A DNA stretch of 64,000 nucleotides from Neisseria yangbaofengii. Its GTDB lineage: Bacteria; Pseudomonadota; Gammaproteobacteria; Burkholderiales; Neisseriaceae. Below are positions 5,797-56,193 of this stretch, piece after piece. Made by a program: the position numbers and the translations under genes. The notes below the pieces were generated by a model. That model did no database searches. It had not been told where the DNA came from and saw only the letters and a program-made list of their open reading frames with translations. Every line of letters begins with the position of its first letter. Within the stretch, counting starts at the first letter, position 1. The stretch covers positions 1-64,000 of the forward strand of contig NZ_CP062976.1 of assembly GCF_014898075.1 (NCBI RefSeq), in the 5' to 3' direction.

Positions 5797-6248
5797 ATTA
5801 TTACGTTAATTTTTTGGCGGTTGATAGGCCGCCTGAATCCGTTAATAGTGTGGGGCATGATAATCAGAACGAGATTAAATGATTGTATTTAAAATAGAAT
5901 AAATAGTTTATTTGGCTGGTTATCTTCTTCATTTGATTTAATTTTTCGTAAAAATTCCACTGTTGGCCGCGCTTTATGTCAAACTGCATAAATCAGGACA
6001 GATGGCTGTTTCGGCAGAATGTTAATAGTTTAAAGATACTAAGATTAAGATTTAGATTTAAAATAGTAAACTATAATCGATTCCATAGTTTTAATAGCTA
6101 AAATCTTCATGTATAGTCTGTTTCGTCATAGCAAACAAACAGCATCTGGCGGCAGTCATCTCCGACCATGATAATAAAAATCATCGAAGCAGCTTAAACT
6201 AAGCCTGCTTTAAAGATTTCCATTTAACTAATACCAAGGAGCAACACC
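5797..6248. other. Gene-free katA upstream region
   Basis: About 450 bases with no supportable gene. From about 6000 it is AT-rich. It contains the short palindrome ATAGTAAACTAT (6063-6074), and ATAG recurs at about 6087 and 6115. ATAG/CTAT quartets are the unit of OxyR sites and catalase genes are classic OxyR targets, but the spacing here does not match the full four-quartet pattern. A leftover AGGCCGCCTGAA (DUS with one change) is near 5828. Confidence 0.4.
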
Positions 6249-7757
6249 ATGAATAAATGCCCTGTAAACCACTTGACCATGAGCAACGGTGCGCCGGTTG
6301 CCGATAACCAAAACAGCCTGACCGCCGGTCCGCGCGGTCCTTTACTGTCGCAAGATTTGTGGCTCAATGAAAAATTGGGTGATTTTGTGCGCGAAGTGAT
6401 TCCTGAGCGTCGTATGCACGCGAAGGGCAGCGGTGCATTCGGTACTTTTACCGTTACTAACGACATCACTCGCTATACCCGTGCATCGATTTTTAGCGAA
6501 GTCGGCAAAAAAACCGAAATGTTTGCTCGCTTTTCTACCGTGGCCGGTGAGCGCGGTGCGGCCGATGCTGAGCGCGATATTCGTGGTTTTGCCTTGAAGT
6601 TTTACACTGACGAAGGCAACTGGGACATGGTCGGTAACAACACGCCGGTGTTCTTTGTACGCGACCCGCGTAAATTTCCGGATTTGAATAAGGTGGTAAA
6701 ACGCGACCCGCGCACCAATCTGCGCAGCCCGAACAATAATTGGGACTGGTGGACATTGCTGCCGGAAGCCTTCCATCAAATAACCATCGTGATGTCGGAT
6801 CGCGGTATTCCACGTTCTTACCGCCACATGCACGGTTTCGGTTCGCACACTTATAGCTTCTGGAACAAAGAAGGCGAACGTTTCTGGGTGAAATTCCACT
6901 TTTGCACTCAGCAAGGCATTGAAAATCTGACCGATGCCCAAGCCGAAGCGGTGATTGCGAAAGACCGTGAAAGCAACCAACGCGACCTGTATGAAGCGAT
7001 TGAGCGCGGCGAGTTTCCGAAATGGAAAATGTACGTGCAAATCATGCCGGAAGCCGATGCCGAAAAAGTGCCTTACCATCCGTTTGATTTGACCAAAGTA
7101 TGGCCGAAAGGTGATTATCCGCTGATTGAAGTGGGTGAGTTTGAATTAAACAAAAATCCGGAAAACTACTTTGCCGATGTCGAACAAGCTGCTTTTGCGC
7201 CGAGCAATCTGGTGCCGGGCATCAGCGCATCGCCGGATAAAATGCTGCAAGCGCGTTTGTTTAACTATGCCGATGCCGGGCGTTACCGCTTGGGTGTAAA
7301 CCGCAATCAAATTCCGGTCAATGCGCCGCGTTGTCCGGTACACAGCAATGCCCGCGACGGTTTGAACCGCGTTGACGGCAACTATGGCAGCTTGAAAAAC
7401 TACGAGCCAAACAGCTACGGCCTGTGGCAGGAGCAGCCTGAATTTTCCGAGCCGCCTTTGAAAATCAACGGTGATGCTGATTACTGGAATTTCCGTGAAG
7501 ATGATGCGGATTACTTCAGCCAACCGCGCGCGTTGTTCAACCTGATGAACGATATGCAAAAACAAGCTTTGTTTGACAACACCGCTGCGGCCATGGGTGA
7601 TGCGGCAGATTTCATCAAACACCGCCACATCCGCAACTGCTTCATGTGTGACCCTGCTTACGGCGAAGGCGTTGCCAAAGCCTTGGGCATGACCGTTGCC
7701 GATGCACAAGCCGCCCGCGAGACCGATCCTGCGCTGGGCCAACCGGGTTTGCTGTAA
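6249..7757 (+). CDS. katA: Monofunctional haem catalase
   Basis: 502 residues, the size of a small-subunit (clade 3) catalase. It converts hydrogen peroxide to water and oxygen in the cytoplasm. Visible are the distal haem motif [12 protein letters not shown] with catalytic His57, the [12 protein letters not shown] segment with the distal Asn, and the proximal haem-ligand motif [14 protein letters not shown] with its Tyr. An AAGGAG ribosome-binding site precedes the ATG. It is a single-gene unit followed by a Correia element. The symbol katA is used by family; the neisserial gene is also called kat. Confidence 0.95.
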
Positions 7758-46059: not shown

Positions 46060-47391
46060 ATGGCCAAAGGTGAGTATGTGAAGAATGTGGCGGACGTTTT
46101 TTCTTTGGATTATGAAGGGCGCGGGGTAGCGCGATCGGACGGAAAAACGGTTTTTATCAAAGGTGCCATGCCGTCTGAAACCGTTGGCTACCGTGTGACC
46201 GGATCTAAAAAACAATTTGATGAAGCGGAAGTAGAATCTGTCTTAAAGCCATCAGGTGAACGGGTTAAGCCAAAGTGTCGCTATTTCGATACATGTGGCA
46301 GTTGCGTACTGCAGCATATCGAGCCGAATGCGCAGGTGGCATTTAAGCAGCGAATTTTAGAAGAACAATTGGCGCGTATCGGCAAAGTGCTTCCGGAGCA
46401 AATCCTGCCGCCGATTTATGCGGCGCCGTGGCATTACCGTGATAGAGCCAGATTGAGTGTCGCTATTGATGCTTCAGGTAAAGCCAAATTCGGTTTTCAG
46501 GCAAAGCGCAGTCATGATGTGGTGGATATTGCGTCTTGTGAAGTGTTGCCGCAACACATTTCGGTGCAGATTCCTTCGGTAACAATGTTGCTGCAAACAT
46601 TAGTGGATTCGGGAGCAGGAATCAAATTTGTCGAGTTTTACCGCAGTAAAAAATTAACCGTATTGAATCTGTGTTTTTATCAAAGGCCGTCTGAAAAAAC
46701 AGAGTGCCAATTGAGAAAATGGTTTGATGCATCTTTAAAAGAAAAAAACGAAACTTGGCAGCTGTGGATACAATACGGCAAAGAATCGGCACAGGCTTTT
46801 TATCCAATACATCATGTTGATTTATCTTATGATTTGCCTGAGTATGATTTGACTATGCCTTATCGGCCGGGTGACTTTACTCAAATTAATGCCGACTTAA
46901 ATGCACTGATGATTAGTCGGGCCATCCGGCTGCTGGATATCCGTTCAGGCGAAAGAATTGCCGATTTGTTCTGCGGGTTGGGCAACTTCAGTTTGCCTAT
47001 GGCAAAATGTGGCGCAAGTGTAGTCGGTATTGAAGGCGCAGATTATTTGGTCGATCGTGCGCAGCAAAATGCCATGGCAAACGGCTGTGCAGATCAGGTT
47101 GAATTTCAAGTGGCTGATTTATTTGATACAGATGAAGCAACGGTAGCATCGTGGGGACAATTCGATAAAATGTTGCTCGATCCGCCGCGAAGAGGTGCTT
47201 ATGCTGTCGTCAAATCGCTACATTTACCTTATTTACCCAAACGCATTGTTTATGTGTCGTGCAATCCTGCCACACTCGCGCGTGATGCTGCTGTTTTAAT
47301 TGAGAAAGGCTATGTTTTCAAGTCTGCCGGTGTGATGAACATGTTTCCTCAAACCGCCCATGTCGAATCCATCGGCGTGTTTGAGTGGTAG
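46060..47391 (+). CDS. rlmD: 23S rRNA (uracil-1939-C5)-methyltransferase RlmD
   Basis: 443 residues. An N-terminal TRAM domain is followed by [4Fe-4S] cysteines (CRYFDTCGSCVLQH and Cys in DIASCEV), the SAM site LFCGLGNFSLPMA and the catalytic nucleophile in YVSCNPATLARD. Two DUS copies are read in frame: AMPSETV (AT dialect) and QRPSEKT (AG dialect). The TAG stop codon coincides with the terminus of a DUS-associated repeat. Confidence 0.93.
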   Translation: MAKGEYVKNVADVFSLDYEGRGVARSDGKTVFIKGAMPSETVGYRVTGSKKQFDEAEVESVLKPSGERVKPKCRYFDTCGSCVLQHIEPNAQVAFKQRILEEQLARIGKVLPEQILPPIYAAPWHYRDRARLSVAIDASGKAKFGFQAKRSHDVVDIASCEVLPQHISVQIPSVTMLLQTLVDSGAGIKFVEFYRSKKLTVLNLCFYQRPSEKTECQLRKWFDASLKEKNETWQLWIQYGKESAQAFYPIHHVDLSYDLPEYDLTMPYRPGDFTQINADLNALMISRAIRLLDIRSGERIADLFCGLGNFSLPMAKCGASVVGIEGADYLVDRAQQNAMANGCADQVEFQVADLFDTDEATVASWGQFDKMLLDPPRRGAYAVVKSLHLPYLPKRIVYVSCNPATLARDAAVLIEKGYVFKSAGVMNMFPQTAHVESIGVFEW

Positions 47392-47518: not shown

Positions 47519-47684
47519 ATATCAGGCCGTCTGTCAAATGGTTTTTTAATGTAATTATCCGGGGAATCATGCTATCATAATCAATCTAGGGGATAACATG
47601 ATTCGATAGCATAAATAAATGAGTGTCGAACATATTAATACATTGGCAGTGTGATGCGCATTTGTGCATCATCGGGAGGTGTTC

Positions 47685-49133
47685 TTGAATTATTCGCTTT
47701 TAATCATCTTGCTGGCGCTTTTGTTGCTGGTCTTGTTGTTCGTACGCTATAAGCAAGGCGGTGAGACGGCAAAAAAACCGAGCAAAGCAGCTAAAGCATC
47801 CAGACAAAATAATCATCAAAATCAGGCTGATGAGGCTTCTGATGGTGCAGATTGGATGGATAAAGTCAATCAGTCTGTTTCCAATGCCGACAACCAAGAT
47901 TGGGAATGGGACACAGAAGGTGGCAGCGGCACATCTACAGCTTCCGTATCCGCTCAGGAAGTCGACCCATTAACCGAATATCAAGTCTATAAGCAATTCG
48001 GCTACGAAAGCAAAGCAGCCGAATCCCTCGCCAGCTATCTCAATGGCCTGCCTGATGGCGCGCCTGAAAAATTAGTTCATGAATTGGTCGGCTTAAATCT
48101 GCGTGTCGGTAACATCGATAAATTAGCCGAAACCTTAGAAAATCATGGTTCCGCTTTGCCGGAAGACAGCTTGGCTGAATATGTGAAGCTGGGTCTGATG
48201 GCCGAGTCTACTCATTTGCGCCTGCGCGTATTGGCAGAGAGCAAATTAGGCTGGAATATGCAGGAGGTTGCCCGTCAAATCGGTGAAAATAATGGCATTG
48301 AGGAAAATATTGTCACTAACCCTGTTCTTACCATCGATTCTGCCAATCCACAAGCAGCTAATGGGTTCTCTAAACGCGCTCCAATTGTTTTGGGTAAAAA
48401 AGAATTCAGCGATATCACGCCTGAAGAGATGAGTGCGGTAATCGGTTTTGTGAAGCCGGAGCAAAGTGCCAAGATTCTGAAAGATAAAGTGAATTATGAG
48501 ACAGCGGTAGAACAATACAACCGTGCGATTCATCATTCTGCCAAACCGGCAAGCCTCATTATTGATGCCTTGAAGTTGGACTATCAAAACGAAGAAGTCG
48601 GTCAATTTGCCAAGCATTTATGGAAATTATATTACTCTTTGGGCCAATATGGCCGCCAAGTTAAAGAACGTATGTTAGGCTGGGGCTACAGCCTAGGTTA
48701 CCATGAGCTTTTCGATGATTTGGAACGCAGCCCGAGTGAGCAGCAAGTGCGAGAAATCGGCTTGTCACGTGGTTATTTGCAACCAACTGCCTTACAAATG
48801 AAATCCAAATACCGCGACTTGGTGCAAAAAGATTCATCCATCATCAGCGCAAATAATTCACCTGCCGACGAGGCATTGAAAGAAGTGGAATCTTTGCTGA
48901 TGTATGGTCAGCTTGATCAAGCAATTGGTACTTTGGAACAGGCAGTATTGCAATATCCGAAAGAATCTCAGCTGTATGTGATGCTGTTTGACCTTTATGA
49001 GCGTGCTGAGGATTGGGCACGTTTGGAACAATTCTTACGTTTATTGCGAGAACGCGTCGTCAACTTGCCGGAGGAGGTGGTTTTGGCCATGAGCCGCTTG
49101 TTGCAACGTGTCAACCAACATTCTAAAAAATAA
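47685..49133 (+). CDS. FimV-like membrane protein with TPR motifs
   Basis: 482 residues from a TTG start chosen because GGGAGG ends 5 bases upstream. An N-terminal membrane helix (LLIILLALLLLVLLFV) is followed by a Lys/Asn/Asp/Ser-rich disordered region, then a helical part with FimV-type TPR signatures (DPLTEYQVYKQFGYESKAAE; VESLLMYGQLDQAIGTLEQA). FimV proteins organise pole-localised type IV pilus and signalling components. LysM is absent, so it is FimV-like rather than full FimV. It heads a five-gene operon. Confidence 0.78.
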   Translation: MNYSLLIILLALLLLVLLFVRYKQGGETAKKPSKAAKASRQNNHQNQADEASDGADWMDKVNQSVSNADNQDWEWDTEGGSGTSTASVSAQEVDPLTEYQVYKQFGYESKAAESLASYLNGLPDGAPEKLVHELVGLNLRVGNIDKLAETLENHGSALPEDSLAEYVKLGLMAESTHLRLRVLAESKLGWNMQEVARQIGENNGIEENIVTNPVLTIDSANPQAANGFSKRAPIVLGKKEFSDITPEEMSAVIGFVKPEQSAKILKDKVNYETAVEQYNRAIHHSAKPASLIIDALKLDYQNEEVGQFAKHLWKLYYSLGQYGRQVKERMLGWGYSLGYHELFDDLERSPSEQQVREIGLSRGYLQPTALQMKSKYRDLVQKDSSIISANNSPADEALKEVESLLMYGQLDQAIGTLEQAVLQYPKESQLYVMLFDLYERAEDWARLEQFLRLLRERVVNLPEEVVLAMSRLLQRVNQHSKK

Positions 49134-49156
49134 AATAACTCAAGAGAGTATCAATA

Positions 49157-50251
49157 ATGGACAATCTGTTGCCTAAGATTAAAACCATACGGATCATGTT
49201 GCAAAAAGTGGGTGATCAGCAAGAGGCCGTATTCCGTATGGCTTTTAAAATGCACAATACGACGAATTACGAAATTGTAACGCCGGAATCAGCCGATAAA
49301 CCGGATTTGATTTTGGTCGACACTGACTCACAACAAGGGATGGAAGCGTGGAAAGCAGCAACAGCAGCCTATCCTGAAACACCGGTAGCGATGTTTTCTT
49401 CATCTGAACCGACCGTTACCACACCTTATCTGCCGAAACCAATCAAATTTGATACCTTATTTCCTATCTTGCGCAGTTTGGCACAAGGCGGACAGATTTT
49501 TACCGTTTCAGACGGCGTGACTTCCAGTCAAGAAGCAGGTCAAACTCAAGCTGATGGTACGCGCAAAGCAACCATCCGCCGCTTCAATCCACAAAAAGGG
49601 TTGCTGGGCGCGTTGAAATTTGCCAGTCAAGGTCATCAAGATATTGCCGTTTTGCATCAAGGCAAACCGGTATTGATCGTGTTTCCAAACATTCAGCGTG
49701 TCTTATTGACCGTTAATGCCACTGAATTAGAAAAACTATGTAAAGATGATAATCTTGCCGTAGTGTGTAAGGCTGTGCCTGATAACCCGCAATGGAAAGA
49801 AAAGGCTAAAGTCACGATTATGTCGTGCTTGTGGCAAATGGCGATTTGGACTGCCCAAGGCCGGCTGATTTATCCGATGACACCGCAAACCGTTTTCACG
49901 TTGAAACGCTGGCCGAATTTGACCCGTTTGGCTCATGTGCCTGAATCGATGCGCTTATCGGCCTTTCTAACCAAAACATCGGTTAACCTGAATATTCTGT
50001 ATAAAGTCATGCCTTTAGAAATGCCGGATATTTTGAATTATCTGGCAGCGACGTCCGTAACGGGTTTCTTGGCAACCGATGCCGAATACGCTCAAGCAGT
50101 GCCGGCCAATCTGACCGAACGCGTTAATGTCAGCAGCGATGTGCCGGACAGCGAAATGGCTAAAGATGCCGAAAAAGTGGCTGGTCCGTCAGAAGAGCAG
50201 CCGCGTGGTTTGTTACAACGCCTGATGCGTAAATTGCTTGGTAAACGATAA
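49157..50251 (+). CDS. Receiver-like protein of unknown function (GTPase operon)
   Basis: 364 residues; not firmly recognised. The first 110 residues fold like a response-regulator receiver (IRIMLQKVGD, ILVDTDSQQGMEAW, PYLPKPIKFDTLFPIL, where the KP corresponds to the conserved Lys-Pro), but the acidic pair is altered. A middle region (about 140-330) of alpha/beta type follows, and a basic tail (LLQRLMRKLLGKR) could bind membrane or partner. It lies 23 bases after the FimV-like gene and 16 before the GTPase gene. Confidence 0.6.
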   Translation: MDNLLPKIKTIRIMLQKVGDQQEAVFRMAFKMHNTTNYEIVTPESADKPDLILVDTDSQQGMEAWKAATAAYPETPVAMFSSSEPTVTTPYLPKPIKFDTLFPILRSLAQGGQIFTVSDGVTSSQEAGQTQADGTRKATIRRFNPQKGLLGALKFASQGHQDIAVLHQGKPVLIVFPNIQRVLLTVNATELEKLCKDDNLAVVCKAVPDNPQWKEKAKVTIMSCLWQMAIWTAQGRLIYPMTPQTVFTLKRWPNLTRLAHVPESMRLSAFLTKTSVNLNILYKVMPLEMPDILNYLAATSVTGFLATDAEYAQAVPANLTERVNVSSDVPDSEMAKDAEKVAGPSEEQPRGLLQRLMRKLLGKR

Positions 50252-50267
50252 TAAAAAGGACAAGGCA

Positions 50268-50804
50268 ATGAAAGAAAATAAAATTATCTTTACCGGTCCG
50301 GTAGGCGTAGGTAAAACAACAGCTATTTCAGCATTATCCGATGAGCCGCCAATTCAAACGGATGCTTCCGCTTCCGATATGACTTTGGTCCGCAAAGGCT
50401 ACACCACCGTTGCTATGGATTATGGTGTGATTCATTTGGATGAAGAAACCAAAGTGCATTTATATGGCACACCGGGTCAAGAACGCTTTAATTTCATGTG
50501 GGAAATTCTTAGTCAAGGCAGTATGGGTTTGGTGTTGCTGCTGGATAATACCCGTACTAATCCATTGAAAGATTTGCAATTCTTTTTGGAAGCTTTCCGT
50601 GAGTTGCTGAAAACCGCTCCTTTGGTAGTTGGTGTGACCAAAATGGATATCCGTTCTTTGCCGGGTGTGGATGTATATCAAAAATACTTGGCTCAAAATA
50701 ATTTTAATGTACCGGTTTTTGAGATTGATGCCCGTCGTGAAGACGATGTGAAGCAGTTGGTGACTGCGATGTTATTCTCAATTGATCCGGGTTTAGAGGT
50801 ATAA
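50268..50804 (+). CDS. Small Ras-like GTPase (MglA / conservon type)
   Basis: 178 residues. P-loop GPVGVGKTT (10-18), switch region RKGYTTVAMDYGVIHL, G3 GTPGQERFNFMW (67-78) and G4 TKMD (124-127) are all intact, so GTP hydrolysis is likely. The TTVAMD.G and GTPGQ.RF.FMW blocks are those of the GTPases found with Roadblock proteins in actinobacterial conservons and of bacterial MglA relatives. The partner Roadblock gene is two genes downstream. Confidence 0.88.
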   Translation: MKENKIIFTGPVGVGKTTAISALSDEPPIQTDASASDMTLVRKGYTTVAMDYGVIHLDEETKVHLYGTPGQERFNFMWEILSQGSMGLVLLLDNTRTNPLKDLQFFLEAFRELLKTAPLVVGVTKMDIRSLPGVDVYQKYLAQNNFNVPVFEIDARREDDVKQLVTAMLFSIDPGLEV

Positions 50805-50805
50805 G

Positions 50806-51447
50806 ATGGAATCTACACTCTCTTTACAGTCAAATTTGTACCCCAAAATTACACCGGCAGGCGCCTATTATGCCGTTTCTAACGAAACCCCAAGTGCCAG
50901 CCGTACATTACTTTACGGTTTATTGCGGGCAGATCCTACTGAAACTATCAGCAGCCAAAGAGTGTTGGCTTGGGCCGATACCAGCGACATCAACACGGCA
51001 TTGAATCTGCTGTATCGTTTGCAACGCTTGGAATTTTTATACGGCGACGAGCAAATGAGCACAGACGATGTGAACCTGACTGATGAACAACTGCCGCAAT
51101 TATTGGAGCAATTGTCCAATTCAGGCAAAGCATTATTAGCTGATGAAAACGGGCTTTATTTTGCCAATGCAGGCTTTCATCATGAAGCTGCGGAAGAATT
51201 AGGCTTATTGGCGAGCGAAGTGGCGAAAGTTGAAGATAATCACCGCTTATTGATTCGCAACAACCTGTACATTAACAACAGCGCATGGGGTATTTGCGAT
51301 CCATCAGGCCAAAGCGAACTGACTTTCTTCCCGCTTTACGTCGGACAAACCAAACTGATTTTGGTTATCGGCGGTATGCCTGATTTAAATAAAGAAGCCT
51401 TTGTTACCATGGTTAAAGTGTTATATCACCGATACGGCAGTCGCTAA
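50806..51447 (+). CDS. Protein of unknown function in GTPase operon
   Basis: 213 residues; family not recognised. The start is 1 base after the GTPase stop, so the two are probably coupled. An N-terminal helical part (SASRTLLYGLLRADPTETIS, then DINTALNLLYRLQRLEFLYG) could be a winged helix, as in the DUF742 protein of conservons. The C-terminal half (about 130-213) alternates beta and alpha (LIRNNLYINNSAWGICD, LILVIGGMPDLN) and could be a second Roadblock-like or profilin-like fold. Confidence 0.6.
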   Translation: MESTLSLQSNLYPKITPAGAYYAVSNETPSASRTLLYGLLRADPTETISSQRVLAWADTSDINTALNLLYRLQRLEFLYGDEQMSTDDVNLTDEQLPQLLEQLSNSGKALLADENGLYFANAGFHHEAAEELGLLASEVAKVEDNHRLLIRNNLYINNSAWGICDPSGQSELTFFPLYVGQTKLILVIGGMPDLNKEAFVTMVKVLYHRYGSR

Positions 51448-51490
51448 CCCGACTTGATATAACCCACTACATTTTGAATGGAATAAAAAT

Positions 51491-51850
51491 ATGCAACAAT
51501 TATTAATCTCCGTATTAAGCGACTTGAATAATACCTCTACGGATATCGTCGCTTCTGCCGTGATTTCTCCTGATGGCTTGCCGATTGCAACGCTGCTGCC
51601 AAACCATTTAAATGCCGACCGTGTAGGTGCCATGTCGGCCACCTTGTTGGCTTTGGGCAACCGTTCCGTACAAGAGTTGGCTTGCGGCGAGCTTGATCAA
51701 GTGATGGTAAAAGGTAAAAACGGCTATATTTTATTGAGCCAAGCAGGTGATAATGCCGTATTGGCTTTAATGGCCAAAGAAAGTGGCAAATTGGGCTTAA
51801 TCCTGCTGGATGCCAAACGCGCTGCCAAACATATTGCGGAAATTTTGTAA
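51491..51850 (+). CDS. Roadblock/LC7 domain protein
   Basis: 119 residues, one Roadblock/LC7 fold (DIVASAVISPDGLPIATLLP, VMVKGKNGYILLSQAGDNAVLALMA, LGLILLDAKRAAKHI). In Myxococcus the Roadblock protein MglB acts as a GTPase-activating protein for MglA. It closes the five-gene operon, 43 bases after the preceding gene. Confidence 0.87.
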   Translation: MQQLLISVLSDLNNTSTDIVASAVISPDGLPIATLLPNHLNADRVGAMSATLLALGNRSVQELACGELDQVMVKGKNGYILLSQAGDNAVLALMAKESGKLGLILLDAKRAAKHIAEIL

Positions 51851-51928: not shown

Positions 51929-52004
51929 TCCCTGATAGCTCAGTCGGTAGAGCGACGGACTGTTAATCCGCAGGTCCCTGGTTCGAGCCCAGGTCGGGGA
52001 GCCA
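51929..52004 (+). tRNA. tRNA-Asn(GTT)
   Basis: 76 nt including an encoded CCA. Acceptor TCCCTGA / TCGGGGA, D-loop GCTCAGTCGGTAGAGC, anticodon loop CTGTTAA with GTT, T-arm CCTGGTTCGAGCCCAGG. Confidence 0.97.
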
Positions 52005-52134: not shown

Positions 52135-52226
52135 TATAGTGGATCCACTTTAAAATAGTACGGCGTTGGTTCGCCTAGCCGTATTATCTATACTGTCTCC
52201 GGCTCACTGCCTTGTCCTATTTTAAG
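52135..52226. repeat. Correia element, right end truncated
   Basis: Begins TATAGTGGATCCACTTTAAA and has the full core to TTGTCCTATTTTAA, but the right terminal repeat is missing and joins a gene fragment. Confidence 0.82.
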
Positions 52227-52338
52227 TGGTGACTTGCGCGTCTTCGGTAAACAAGGGCATTTGCTCGGCAACGCGTTTTTCATCGGCTAAATTTGAGAAT
52301 GTATCCACCAAATCTTTTAAGGCTTGGCGTTCCTGAAA
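52224..52338 (-). pseudogene. Fragment of a SnoaL/NTF2-like protein
   Basis: About 36 codons on the minus strand encode QERQALKDLVDTFSNLADE then KRVAEQMPLFTEDAQVTT, the start of the first helices of the SnoaL/NTF2-like fold. The rest of the gene is gone, cut off by the truncated Correia element. Such proteins sometimes accompany alpha/beta hydrolases, one of which lies downstream. Confidence 0.5.
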
Positions 52339-52367: not shown

Positions 52368-52518
52368 TTTTGGACGAGAACACGCGTCTTGCCGCGCACC
52401 ACGCTTTTGGGTGGGTGGTGCGGAACGGTGCGTTCTCCGTAGTGTCAGTACTGGCTCAAAATTCATTCTCAAAAATTTAACTATTTTTGCGATTAAAATT
52501 TTTATAGATTGAGTAGAT

Positions 52519-52595
52519 GAATTTTTAAAATAACTCGCCTATTGAATTTTTAAAATAACTCGCCTATTGAATTTTTAAACTAACTCATCTATAAT
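52519..52595 (+). promoter_or_regulatory. Tandem 25-bp repeats with promoter of the lipoprotein gene
   Basis: Three 25-bp direct repeats (52519-52543, 52544-52568, 52569-52593) of GAATTTTTAAAATAACTCGC plus CTATT. TTGAAT (52567-52572), a 17-nt spacer and TATAAT (52590-52595) form a good sigma-70 promoter across the third copy. The repeated TAACTC blocks could be regulator sites. Confidence 0.65.
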
Positions 52596-54953: not shown

Positions 54954-55128
54954 TGATAGATTATGTCCGGCGAAGTTGAAGCGCAACGGATACTGAGTCG
55001 GAAGCTGTATATTCCTTCCTCTTCATGGTTTTACTCATATGAAGTAAACGAAAATGCCAAGCGCATTACGGATTTTAAAATATAATACACAACCAATTAT
55101 TCACAAATTTTTAACCGGAGTTAATGAA

Positions 55129-55611
55129 ATGAAAAACATGCAAAAAGGTTTTACCTTGATTGAATTGATGATCGTAGTTGCAATTATTGGTATTCTGGCA
55201 GCCATTGCGTTGCCTATGTATCAAAACTACATCGCTCGCTCACAAGTTTCACGCGTAATGGGTGAATCAGGCAATTTAAAAACGGTTGCTGAAACTTGTG
55301 TTTTGGATGGTAAATTGACTGTTGGCAAGGACAACGGTAACTGTAAAATTGGTGCAACTGGATCTAATTTGTTAACTGGTGCCGCACAAAGTGGTGAAAC
55401 TCTAGAAACTGGTACGGGTGTGCCTCAAGTAACGTTGCAAAATACAGGTGCTGCAACTATTGTAGCTACGTTTGGTAATAATGCTGCAGCTGATTTGAAG
55501 ACTAAAACTTTGACTTGGACGCGTTCAGTAGATGGTACTTGGACTTGTGGTACAACTGCTCCTGAAAAATATGTACCATCAGGTTGTGCTGTGACTACTA
55601 CTACTCCTTAA
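55129..55611 (+). CDS. pilE: Type IV major pilin
   Basis: 160 residues. A class III leader (MKNMQKG) is cut by PilD before Phe8; the mature N-terminus [20 protein letters not shown] has Glu5. The globular domain has two cysteine pairs (ETCVLDG and NGNCKIG; WTCGTT and PSGCAV); the last pair bounds the D-region. GGAG precedes the ATG. Transcription is likely from the sigma-54 promoter. A terminator follows. It is shorter and less variable-looking than gonococcal PilE, and no silent pilS cassettes are seen. Confidence 0.93.
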
Positions 55612-55695: not shown

Positions 55696-56193
55696 ATGCA
55701 TAAAAGCCATATGCTAGGTGGGTTTACATTAGTTGAATTGATGGTTGTGTTGGTTATCATAGGGGTGTTATCAGCATTTGCGCTACCAATTTATCAAAAT
55801 TATGTTGGAAAAGCTCAATTGGCGCGTATTGTGTATGAATTGTCAAGTACTAAAGCATCTATTGAGACCATTTTATCTAATGGTGGTTTTCCTACTGTAG
55901 ATGCTGCGCAAAATGGCACTCCATACTCTGATCATGGAGGTATTTATGAGTACATAGGAATTCAAGGTAATAATCCTGTGTCTAACATTATTAGTTTAGC
56001 TACTATTAAATCTGCTGATGGCAGTTTTGGCGGAATTGAGGCAGTTGTTGGTGGGGATGTTAGCGCGATATTAACAGGTACAACAATTGAATTATTGCGC
56101 AATCCTTCAGGCCTTTGGAGCTGTGAAATTAGAATCTTAAATAAAGTTGATAAAAGTGATTTTAGTATTAGTGGCTGCAAAATTGTTGATTAA
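55696..56193 (+). CDS. Second type IV pilin-like protein
   Basis: 165 residues. Leader MHKSHMLGG and mature FTLVELMVVLVIIGVLSAFAL with Glu5 show it is a prepilin. The C-terminal loop is closed by two cysteines (WSCEIRI and SGCKIVD). The body differs from the upstream pilin and is AT-rich. There is a terminator between them, so it needs read-through or its own promoter. It could be an alternative major pilin or a minor pilin. Confidence 0.85.
   Translation: MHKSHMLGGFTLVELMVVLVIIGVLSAFALPIYQNYVGKAQLARIVYELSSTKASIETILSNGGFPTVDAAQNGTPYSDHGGIYEYIGIQGNNPVSNIISLATIKSADGSFGGIEAVVGGDVSAILTGTTIELLRNPSGLWSCEIRILNKVDKSDFSISGCKIVD

Follow-up and report, generated by a model that had tools for sequence, protein, structure and literature searches.

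What does an operon that joins a Ras-like GTPase to Roadblock proteins do in Neisseria yangbaofengii? The operon occupies positions 47,685 to 51,850 of the first 64,000 nucleotides of contig NZ_CP062976.1 (RefSeq assembly GCF_014898075.1), the stretch of DNA analysed here and called the window. An earlier reading made from the sequence alone (the original prediction) had seen in its five genes a FimV-like membrane protein, a receiver-like protein, a small GTPase, an uncharacterised helical protein and a Roadblock protein, linked to type IV pili. Our analysis identified a Group 3 MglA GTPase in a conserved five-gene core, the loss of which goes along with reduced pilus genes, and we give slightly more credence than doubt to the reading that the operon is a membrane-associated MglA switch regulating the placement or activity of type IV pilus machines. 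To our knowledge, how Neisseria fixes the number and place of these pili is an open question; if our reading is true, it becomes testable by single-gene deletions.

Layout and conservation of the operon

All five open reading frames (ORFs) lie on the forward strand. Protein 1 (47685-49133, 482 residues) begins with a TTG behind GGGAGGTG, the program-made ORF list setting its start further upstream, at a GTG at 47664. It is followed by protein 2 (49157-50251, 364 residues), a predicted receiver-fold protein with a variable linker and C-terminal region, and by protein 3 (50268-50804, 178 residues), an MglA-family small GTPase of the Group 3 type with an ATG start, for which the same list gives TTG 50238 instead. 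Protein 4 (50806-51447, 213 residues) is by its model a divergent MglB-type Roadblock protein with an N-terminal helical domain, and protein 5 (51491-51850, 119 residues) a canonical MglB-type Roadblock/LC7 protein. These coordinates, with gaps of 23, 16, 1 and 43 bases between the genes, agree with the tight spacing on one strand that had been predicted; scans for promoters and terminators gave results at chance level. Comparison with the locus L085 (genome G024) led to ratios of non-synonymous to synonymous substitution rates (dN/dS) of 0.07, 0.04, 0.01, 0.02 and 0.03 for proteins 1 to 5, and over seven relatives dS could be computed in 20 of 35 gene-by-relative comparisons, which gave ratios of 0.01-0.12. 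All five ORFs are genes under purifying selection.

Among 83 Neisseriaceae genomes, 70 carry the GTPase and 13 do not, one carrier (G060, 58% complete) being counted on a paralogue of 48% identity alone. Proteins 1-5 stood in order at each of the 20 loci fetched from 20 of the 70 carriers, four of them with split ORFs, which bears out the expected synteny and co-occurrence across the family. As this order recurs in all fetched loci and dN/dS is low, the five-gene cluster is real, far beyond chance. Split-ORF copies concern proteins 1-4 in L091 (G023), protein 2 in L088 (G031) and, in N. weixii (L090 and L159), proteins 2 and 3 of L090, where protein 5 is short as well; they reflect decay or assembly error.

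A scan by name covered the best 80 of 589 loci, which hold the closest GTPases and are not a random sample; near kin of the window have possibly been left out. Neisseria is represented among them by elongata, wadsworthii, dentiae, bergeri and weixii, and N. meningitidis and N. gonorrhoeae are not among these 80. The other genera include Snodgrassella, Eikenella, Conchiformibius, Stenoxybacter, Chromobacterium, Aquitalea and Vogesella, and further Acidithiobacillus, Methylomonas, Thiothrix and Sphaerotilus. Of the 80 named loci, 78 contain the complete set of five proteins, the two incomplete ones (L157 and L169) being cut by contig ends. The order 1-2-3-4-5 with one ORF each was observed in 73, and in 76 with repeats and split ORFs collapsed (protein 5 twice in L122, protein 2 twice in L161, split ORFs in L159); L134 leaves the order only through an over-long protein 3 ORF that starts early, and L168 is truly rearranged.

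In 274 genomes sampled evenly across the class (class sample; genomes matched between tables by eye), protein 4 was found in 26, which span 20 families as read by eye from the table, and the GTPase was matched at E 1e-10 in 47. When 20 loci from 20 of these 47 genomes were inspected, 15 had all five proteins, 14 of them in plain order; in the fifteenth, L064, an ORF at the contig edge comes first. The start of the contig truncates L059, and proteins 1 and 4 are missing from L067, L068, L071 and L069, the last with the GTPase only and near a contig end. L067 and L071 each carry a pair of GTPase genes, accompanied by one or two genes for protein 2.

The GTPase and two unlike Roadblock proteins

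Protein 3 matched the Ras family (PF00071, E 1.6e-10), with ATP_bind_1 as top match (E 6.7e-17), and has the motifs of the small GTPase that had been predicted, namely GPVGVGKT (G1), GTPGQ (G3), TKMD (G4) and DAR (G5). GTPGQ is present in 13/13 rows of alignment A2 (window plus 12 rows), as are T46 and T47 in G2, with threonine where an arginine finger would stand. G5 of the window is D154-A155-R156 (D in 12, A in 9 and R in 12 of the 13 rows). The G4 lysine occurs in 5/13 rows, with R, H or Q in the others; TKMD of the window is canonical, while Group 3 often departs from it. This group was defined in 2014 for beta- and gamma-proteobacteria, with Neisseria listed, by GTPGQ in G3, threonine in G2, DAR in G5 and a G4 off [NT]KxD, often without the lysine; its loci are described as one protein of unknown function, MglA, and one or two MglB (PMC4316618). 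The neighbours of protein 3 fit this description, a receiver-like protein and one or two MglB genes standing beside mglA. The system had therefore been named before, and the proposal that it is undescribed has to be given up. Further MglA-type GTPases with 44-52% identity were noticed in the group G057-G064 (a single additional one in G057, two in each of G058, G059 and G061-G064), the named members of which come from ruminant stomachs.

Protein 5 is the Roadblock protein predicted at the end of the operon, as follows from its match to Roadblock/LC7 (PF03259, 58.2 bits at a cut-off of 23, E 6.8e-16) and from the DG pair D28-G29, invariant in 26/26 rows of alignment A5 (window plus 25 of 79 extracted rows). 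Protein 4, previously listed as uncharacterised and helical, does have a helical N-terminal domain, and its actual identity appears to be that of a second Roadblock protein. The window copy gave no Pfam match up to E 1, and Robl_LC7 was matched by 18/50 rows of alignment A3 (window plus 49 of 80 extracted rows). When the profiles of proteins 4 and 5 were compared, the match was in register but weak (E 0.03, probability 1.7); fold comparison of the AlphaFold2 model (pLDDT 93.2) then led to the MglB fold, with the Roadblock domain at residues 90-212 (51073-51441, forward strand), and settled protein 4 as a divergent MglB-type Roadblock protein as judged from the model. As the aspartate of its DG pair is mostly lost (D in 6/50 rows of A3, N in the window; glycine in 50/50), protein 4 is not classed as a canonical GTPase-activating protein (GAP). 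The pairing of an MglA-type GTPase with a Roadblock partner is thus borne out, with two such partners instead of one. For a shared ancestry of the helical domain in protein 4 with the C-terminal region in protein 2, profile comparison gave no usable match (E 0.014, 17 columns).

Proteins 1 and 2 and the membrane

For protein 2, the window copy gave no Pfam match up to E 1. The receiver and DUF742 profiles against which proteins 2 and 4 were to be searched thus yielded nothing in Pfam, DUF742 included; it is the predicted folds that point to a receiver and a Roadblock protein, respectively. Comparison of the predicted structure, which covered mainly residues 8-112, confirmed a receiver fold for the N-terminal domain as modelled (residues 9-112; 49181-49492, forward strand), in line with the receiver-like protein proposed before. 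D55, the candidate phospho-acceptor, and D57, K94 and P95 are invariant in 41/41 rows of alignment A4 (window plus 40 of 76 extracted rows). Where receivers have an acid pair, at the end of strand 1, a single D stands in 32/41, with none aligned there in the window copy. Residues 348-364 (50198-50248, forward strand) form a basic amphipathic tail, a possible membrane anchor judging by its sequence. Its hydrophobic moment has a median of 0.64 in 41 tails compared to a 90th percentile of 0.52 for internal windows, with L154 and L179 (0.30 and 0.33) as low exceptions, and a strict regular expression matches 29/41 tails.

From Phyre2 matches of the companion protein to receiver and winged-helix folds, transcriptional control has been suggested for Group 3 loci (PMC4316618). 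Protein 2 would then be a response regulator with a DNA-binding C-terminal winged helix, gated by the GTPase and the Roadblock proteins, and its modelled receiver fold agrees with this. However, the window protein matches no family, its 41 homologues gave single weak Pfam matches (two of them to winged-helix families, E 0.054 and 0.097), and both the amphipathic tail and the membrane-anchored long form of protein 1 point to the membrane, so that we regard a transcriptional role as unlikely.

Protein 1 consists of an N-terminal transmembrane helix, an acidic linker and a C-terminal tetratricopeptide repeat (TPR) domain, for which Pfam gave a weak TPR match under the cut-off (PF13428, E 2.9e-4). 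The N-terminal hydrophobic segment is found in 40/41 long forms, window included, and in 0/33 short forms; the alignment of protein 1 (A6) comprises the window plus 31 rows. The long form shares one transmembrane helix, acidic linker and TPR repeats with FimV/HubP, and protein 1 had been called FimV-like. An NCBIfam search of protein 1 gave no FimV model (neither TIGR03504 nor TIGR03505), and the protein has no LysM. The genome's own FimV is a 775-residue ORF at 391 kb that matches TIGR03504 and FimV_core (TIGR03504 and TIGR03505 models) and holds the only TIGR03504 site of the genome (G000:C1:391419-391550); BLASTP detected no meaningful similarity between it and protein 1 (E 0.73). On these grounds protein 1 was ruled out as FimV.

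Co-loss with type IV pilus genes

In the Neisseriaceae, PilM (TIGR01175) was found in 69/70 genomes with the GTPase and in 5/13 without (Fisher p 2.8e-7; kinship is ignored in this and the following tests), and at least two PilT-family matches (E 1e-60) in 68/70 versus 1/13 (p 1.2e-11). The control mreB gave 63/70 versus 8/13 (p 0.018). In the class sample, PilM was present in 26/26 genomes with protein 4 and in 182/248 others (208/274 overall; p 5e-4), and a PilT match in 26/26 with 247/274 overall. Loss of the operon in Neisseriaceae thus mostly accompanies a reduced set of type IV pilus genes.

The losses can be followed at the site itself, which is bounded on the left by the gene of an RlmD/TrmA-type RNA methyltransferase (46060-47391 in the window) and on the right by tRNA-Asn (51929-52004), both on the forward strand. 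In G026 (L095) rlmD ends at 6249 and tRNA-Asn starts at 6137 with no operon remnant between them, whereas a remnant of protein 1 (match to residues 248-366) is left between the two genes in G009 (L093); the site is therefore ancestral and has lost the operon by deletion. Among the 11 remaining operon-less genomes, 9 have a full-length rlmD match, and at the six of these sites that were examined no significant match to proteins 1-5 was detected, L094 and L100 being cut behind rlmD. On an RlmD tree of 31 rows, including 8 of the 13 operon-less genomes, the operon state changes 4-5 times, at least three of them on well-supported branches. PilT was concordant in 2.8 and PilM in 2.2 of three independent pairs on average, and never opposite. 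Gene content and losses suggest control of type IV pili, which lends indirect support to the link with pili made in the original prediction.

Several observations weigh against a pilus switch. The tree holds three independent pairs on well-supported branches and four on all branches; the kinship-corrected association is not significant, a sign test with three pairs being unable to reach 0.05. G009 lost the operon, yet kept PilM and two PilT-family genes, and four more genomes without the GTPase retain PilM. Protein 4 is absent from 182/208 PilM-bearing genomes of the class sample, and pili therefore do not need it. G039, G041, G042 and G007, among the 13 operon-less genomes, are 68-85% complete. 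Finally, among solved structures the GTPase profile matches eukaryotic Rab proteins best, with MglA ranked later; as far as we know, the Protein Data Bank holds MglA structures of Group 1 only.

As the genome of the window carries mreB, its organism is likelier a rod than a coccus. A strict dependence of the operon on rod shape was rejected, since the GTPase gene was matched in 7/70 genomes without an mreB match, among them G023 with its broken operon genes.

Genes added in relatives and further neighbours

The neighbours of the named loci were surveyed by eye in the 25 commonest clusters together with seven family searches. Directly after protein 5, 18/80 loci, mostly of methanotrophs and Thiothrix and including L139, L141, L161 and L170, have genes of a PAS protein and a phosphonate-binding-type protein (representatives: PF08447, E 2.7e-16; PF12974, E 2e-34). 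The latter starts within about 15 residues of its domain and has no hydrophobic leader in these 18, and hence no evident signal peptide. A gene of the ODP family, the proteins of which bind oxygen, directly precedes protein 1 in 11/80 loci (representative: PF19583, E 5.5e-68), from Vogesella, Chromobacterium, Crenobacter, Craterilacuibacter, one genome titled Xenophilus, and ruminant Neisseriaceae (L117-L121, L128, L131, L134, L140, L145, L155). These gamma-proteobacterial and Chromobacterium-type neighbours suggest sensing, and together with the few independent losses they would suit an indirect link, in which lineages shed surface functions jointly after a niche change and the GTPase acts in some other surface or redox behaviour. 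PilM co-occurrence also in the class sample, with protein 4 spread over 20 families, speaks against it, and we hold such a link to be unlikely, about as much as the transcriptional role or slightly more so.

A bactofilin gene lies near the operon in 5/80 loci (L164, L167, L170, L174, L177; one searched: PF04519, E 1.8e-24), in four of them on the opposite strand. A bactofilin of Myxococcus xanthus acts on pilus motors together with a GTPase of the MglA family. Also in 5/80 loci, of Thiothrix type, a FimV/HubP-family gene follows the operon on the operon's strand (L164:9921-11156, L167:8690-9796, L170:9935-10963, L174:6660-8300, L180:7192-8610); the one representative searched reached 37.5 bits for FimV_Cterm (cut-off 30.65) and 35.3 for FimV_core, below 43.45. 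The predicted tie between FimV and the operon thus has support in these relatives, though not through protein 1 itself. Within the survey, FimV/HubP was the sole pilus-related family, and pilin genes did not recur. Both landmark-type neighbours, and the front-rear polarity set by MglA in M. xanthus (PMC9481161), would also be compatible with a polarity or division-site switch, which the original prediction had likewise allowed, aimed at the cell envelope or site selection instead of pili. As the co-loss tracks pilus genes closer than mreB, and the GTPase gene occurs in genomes without an mreB match, this is in our view the least probable of the alternatives.

In the window, two tandem type IV pilin genes (55054-55611 and 55696-56193; PF00114, E 1.2e-21 and 5.9e-11) begin 3.2 kb downstream of the operon. 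A short element at about 52140-52235 with TATAGTGGAT-like and TTTTAAGTGGT-like ends resembles what we take to be a shortened Correia-type repeat, and near-identical direct repeats of about 25 bases (aatttttaaaataactcgcctattg) lie at about 52510-52590, before an alpha/beta hydrolase gene.

Proposed role of the operon

The switch of type IV pilus machines remains our preferred reading because of the Group 3 motifs, the predicted second Roadblock and receiver folds, the co-conservation of five proteins, the PilM/PilT co-occurrence and the losses, and also because of the Snodgrassella mglB spreading and SgmX precedents discussed below and the FimV/HubP and bactofilin genes near the operons of relatives. 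From these we infer interactions, GAP activity, membrane binding and a pilus output as follows. Protein 3 would be the GTP/GDP switch and protein 5 its predicted Roadblock GAP, which protein 4 might modulate or pair with, by analogy to MglC or RomY with MglB. Protein 2 could take the part of RomR, as an input adaptor of receiver fold that its tail tethers to the membrane, and protein 1 that of SgmX, as a membrane-anchored TPR effector connecting the pilus machine to MglA-GTP. The output would be where pilus machines are active, or how many.

A wider version, which we advance only tentatively, is that of a dedicated pilus switch found across beta- and gamma-proteobacteria, which most Neisseria without mreB have retained, with a five-gene core to which exchangeable sensors and landmarks are added. 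The PAS and substrate-binding proteins of methanotrophs and the ODP-type protein of Chromobacterium-type loci would be such sensors, and bactofilin and FimV/HubP the landmarks of Thiothrix-type loci. The two unlike Roadblock proteins may form a heterodimer, and local GTP hydrolysis might distribute or gate pili with or without fixed cell poles.

Comparison with known systems

With the actinobacterial conservons (Group 2 MglA), to which the operon had been likened, it shares a conserved operon of GTPase and Roadblock protein. The likeness ends there: in contrast to conservons it lacks a histidine kinase (CvnA), and proteins 2 and 4 match no Pfam family, DUF742 included. With five genes only and none of them a kinase, membership was rejected.

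The polarity module of Myxococcus xanthus (MglA/MglB/RomR/SgmX) is analogous in parts, with a GTPase, a Roadblock GAP, a receiver partner and a TPR effector acting on type IV pili. MglA-GTP of M. xanthus binds the TPR protein SgmX and thereby stimulates pili (PMC7519303), and an auxiliary GAP partner and asymmetric MglB action have been described (PMC9481161; PMC11016934). However, G2 of Group 1 MglA contains an arginine finger and its G3 reads TVPGQ (PMC4316618), whereas the window operon has TT and GTPGQ at these places. If our reading is true, the operon would represent a second, independent bacterial Ras-like switch design beside Myxococcus.

Closer is the mgl operon of Snodgrassella, which belongs to the same family. 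Its mglA is reported with two coupled mglB genes, one distant from the other, and an orphan mglB-3, an allele of which changed spreading on 0.5% agar (Meng, 2024; PMC11112851); the main text makes no mention of FimV. In our own reading the two coupled mglB genes would correspond to proteins 4 and 5. Unlike Snodgrassella with its orphan, the window genome gave one Robl_LC7 match only, in a search that is blind to protein 4.

Group 3 MglA as such is known by name and nearly unstudied: beyond the Snodgrassella mglB work we found no experiment on it in the open-licence PubMed Central literature, and none on proteins 1 or 2 in the texts consulted. A pilus role would give it a functional lead. The operon shares with the group GTPGQ in G3, threonine in G2, DAR in G5 and the receiver-like and MglB neighbours, and differs in that the window GTPase has retained the lysine of G4, often absent from the group. 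Compared to the Group 3 text of PMC4316618 that was consulted, new are the full five-gene core with a TPR protein in long and short forms as fifth gene, the nature of proteins 1, 2 and 4, including the amphipathic tail and the DG aspartate mostly missing from the first MglB, the genes added in relatives and the co-loss with type IV pilus genes.

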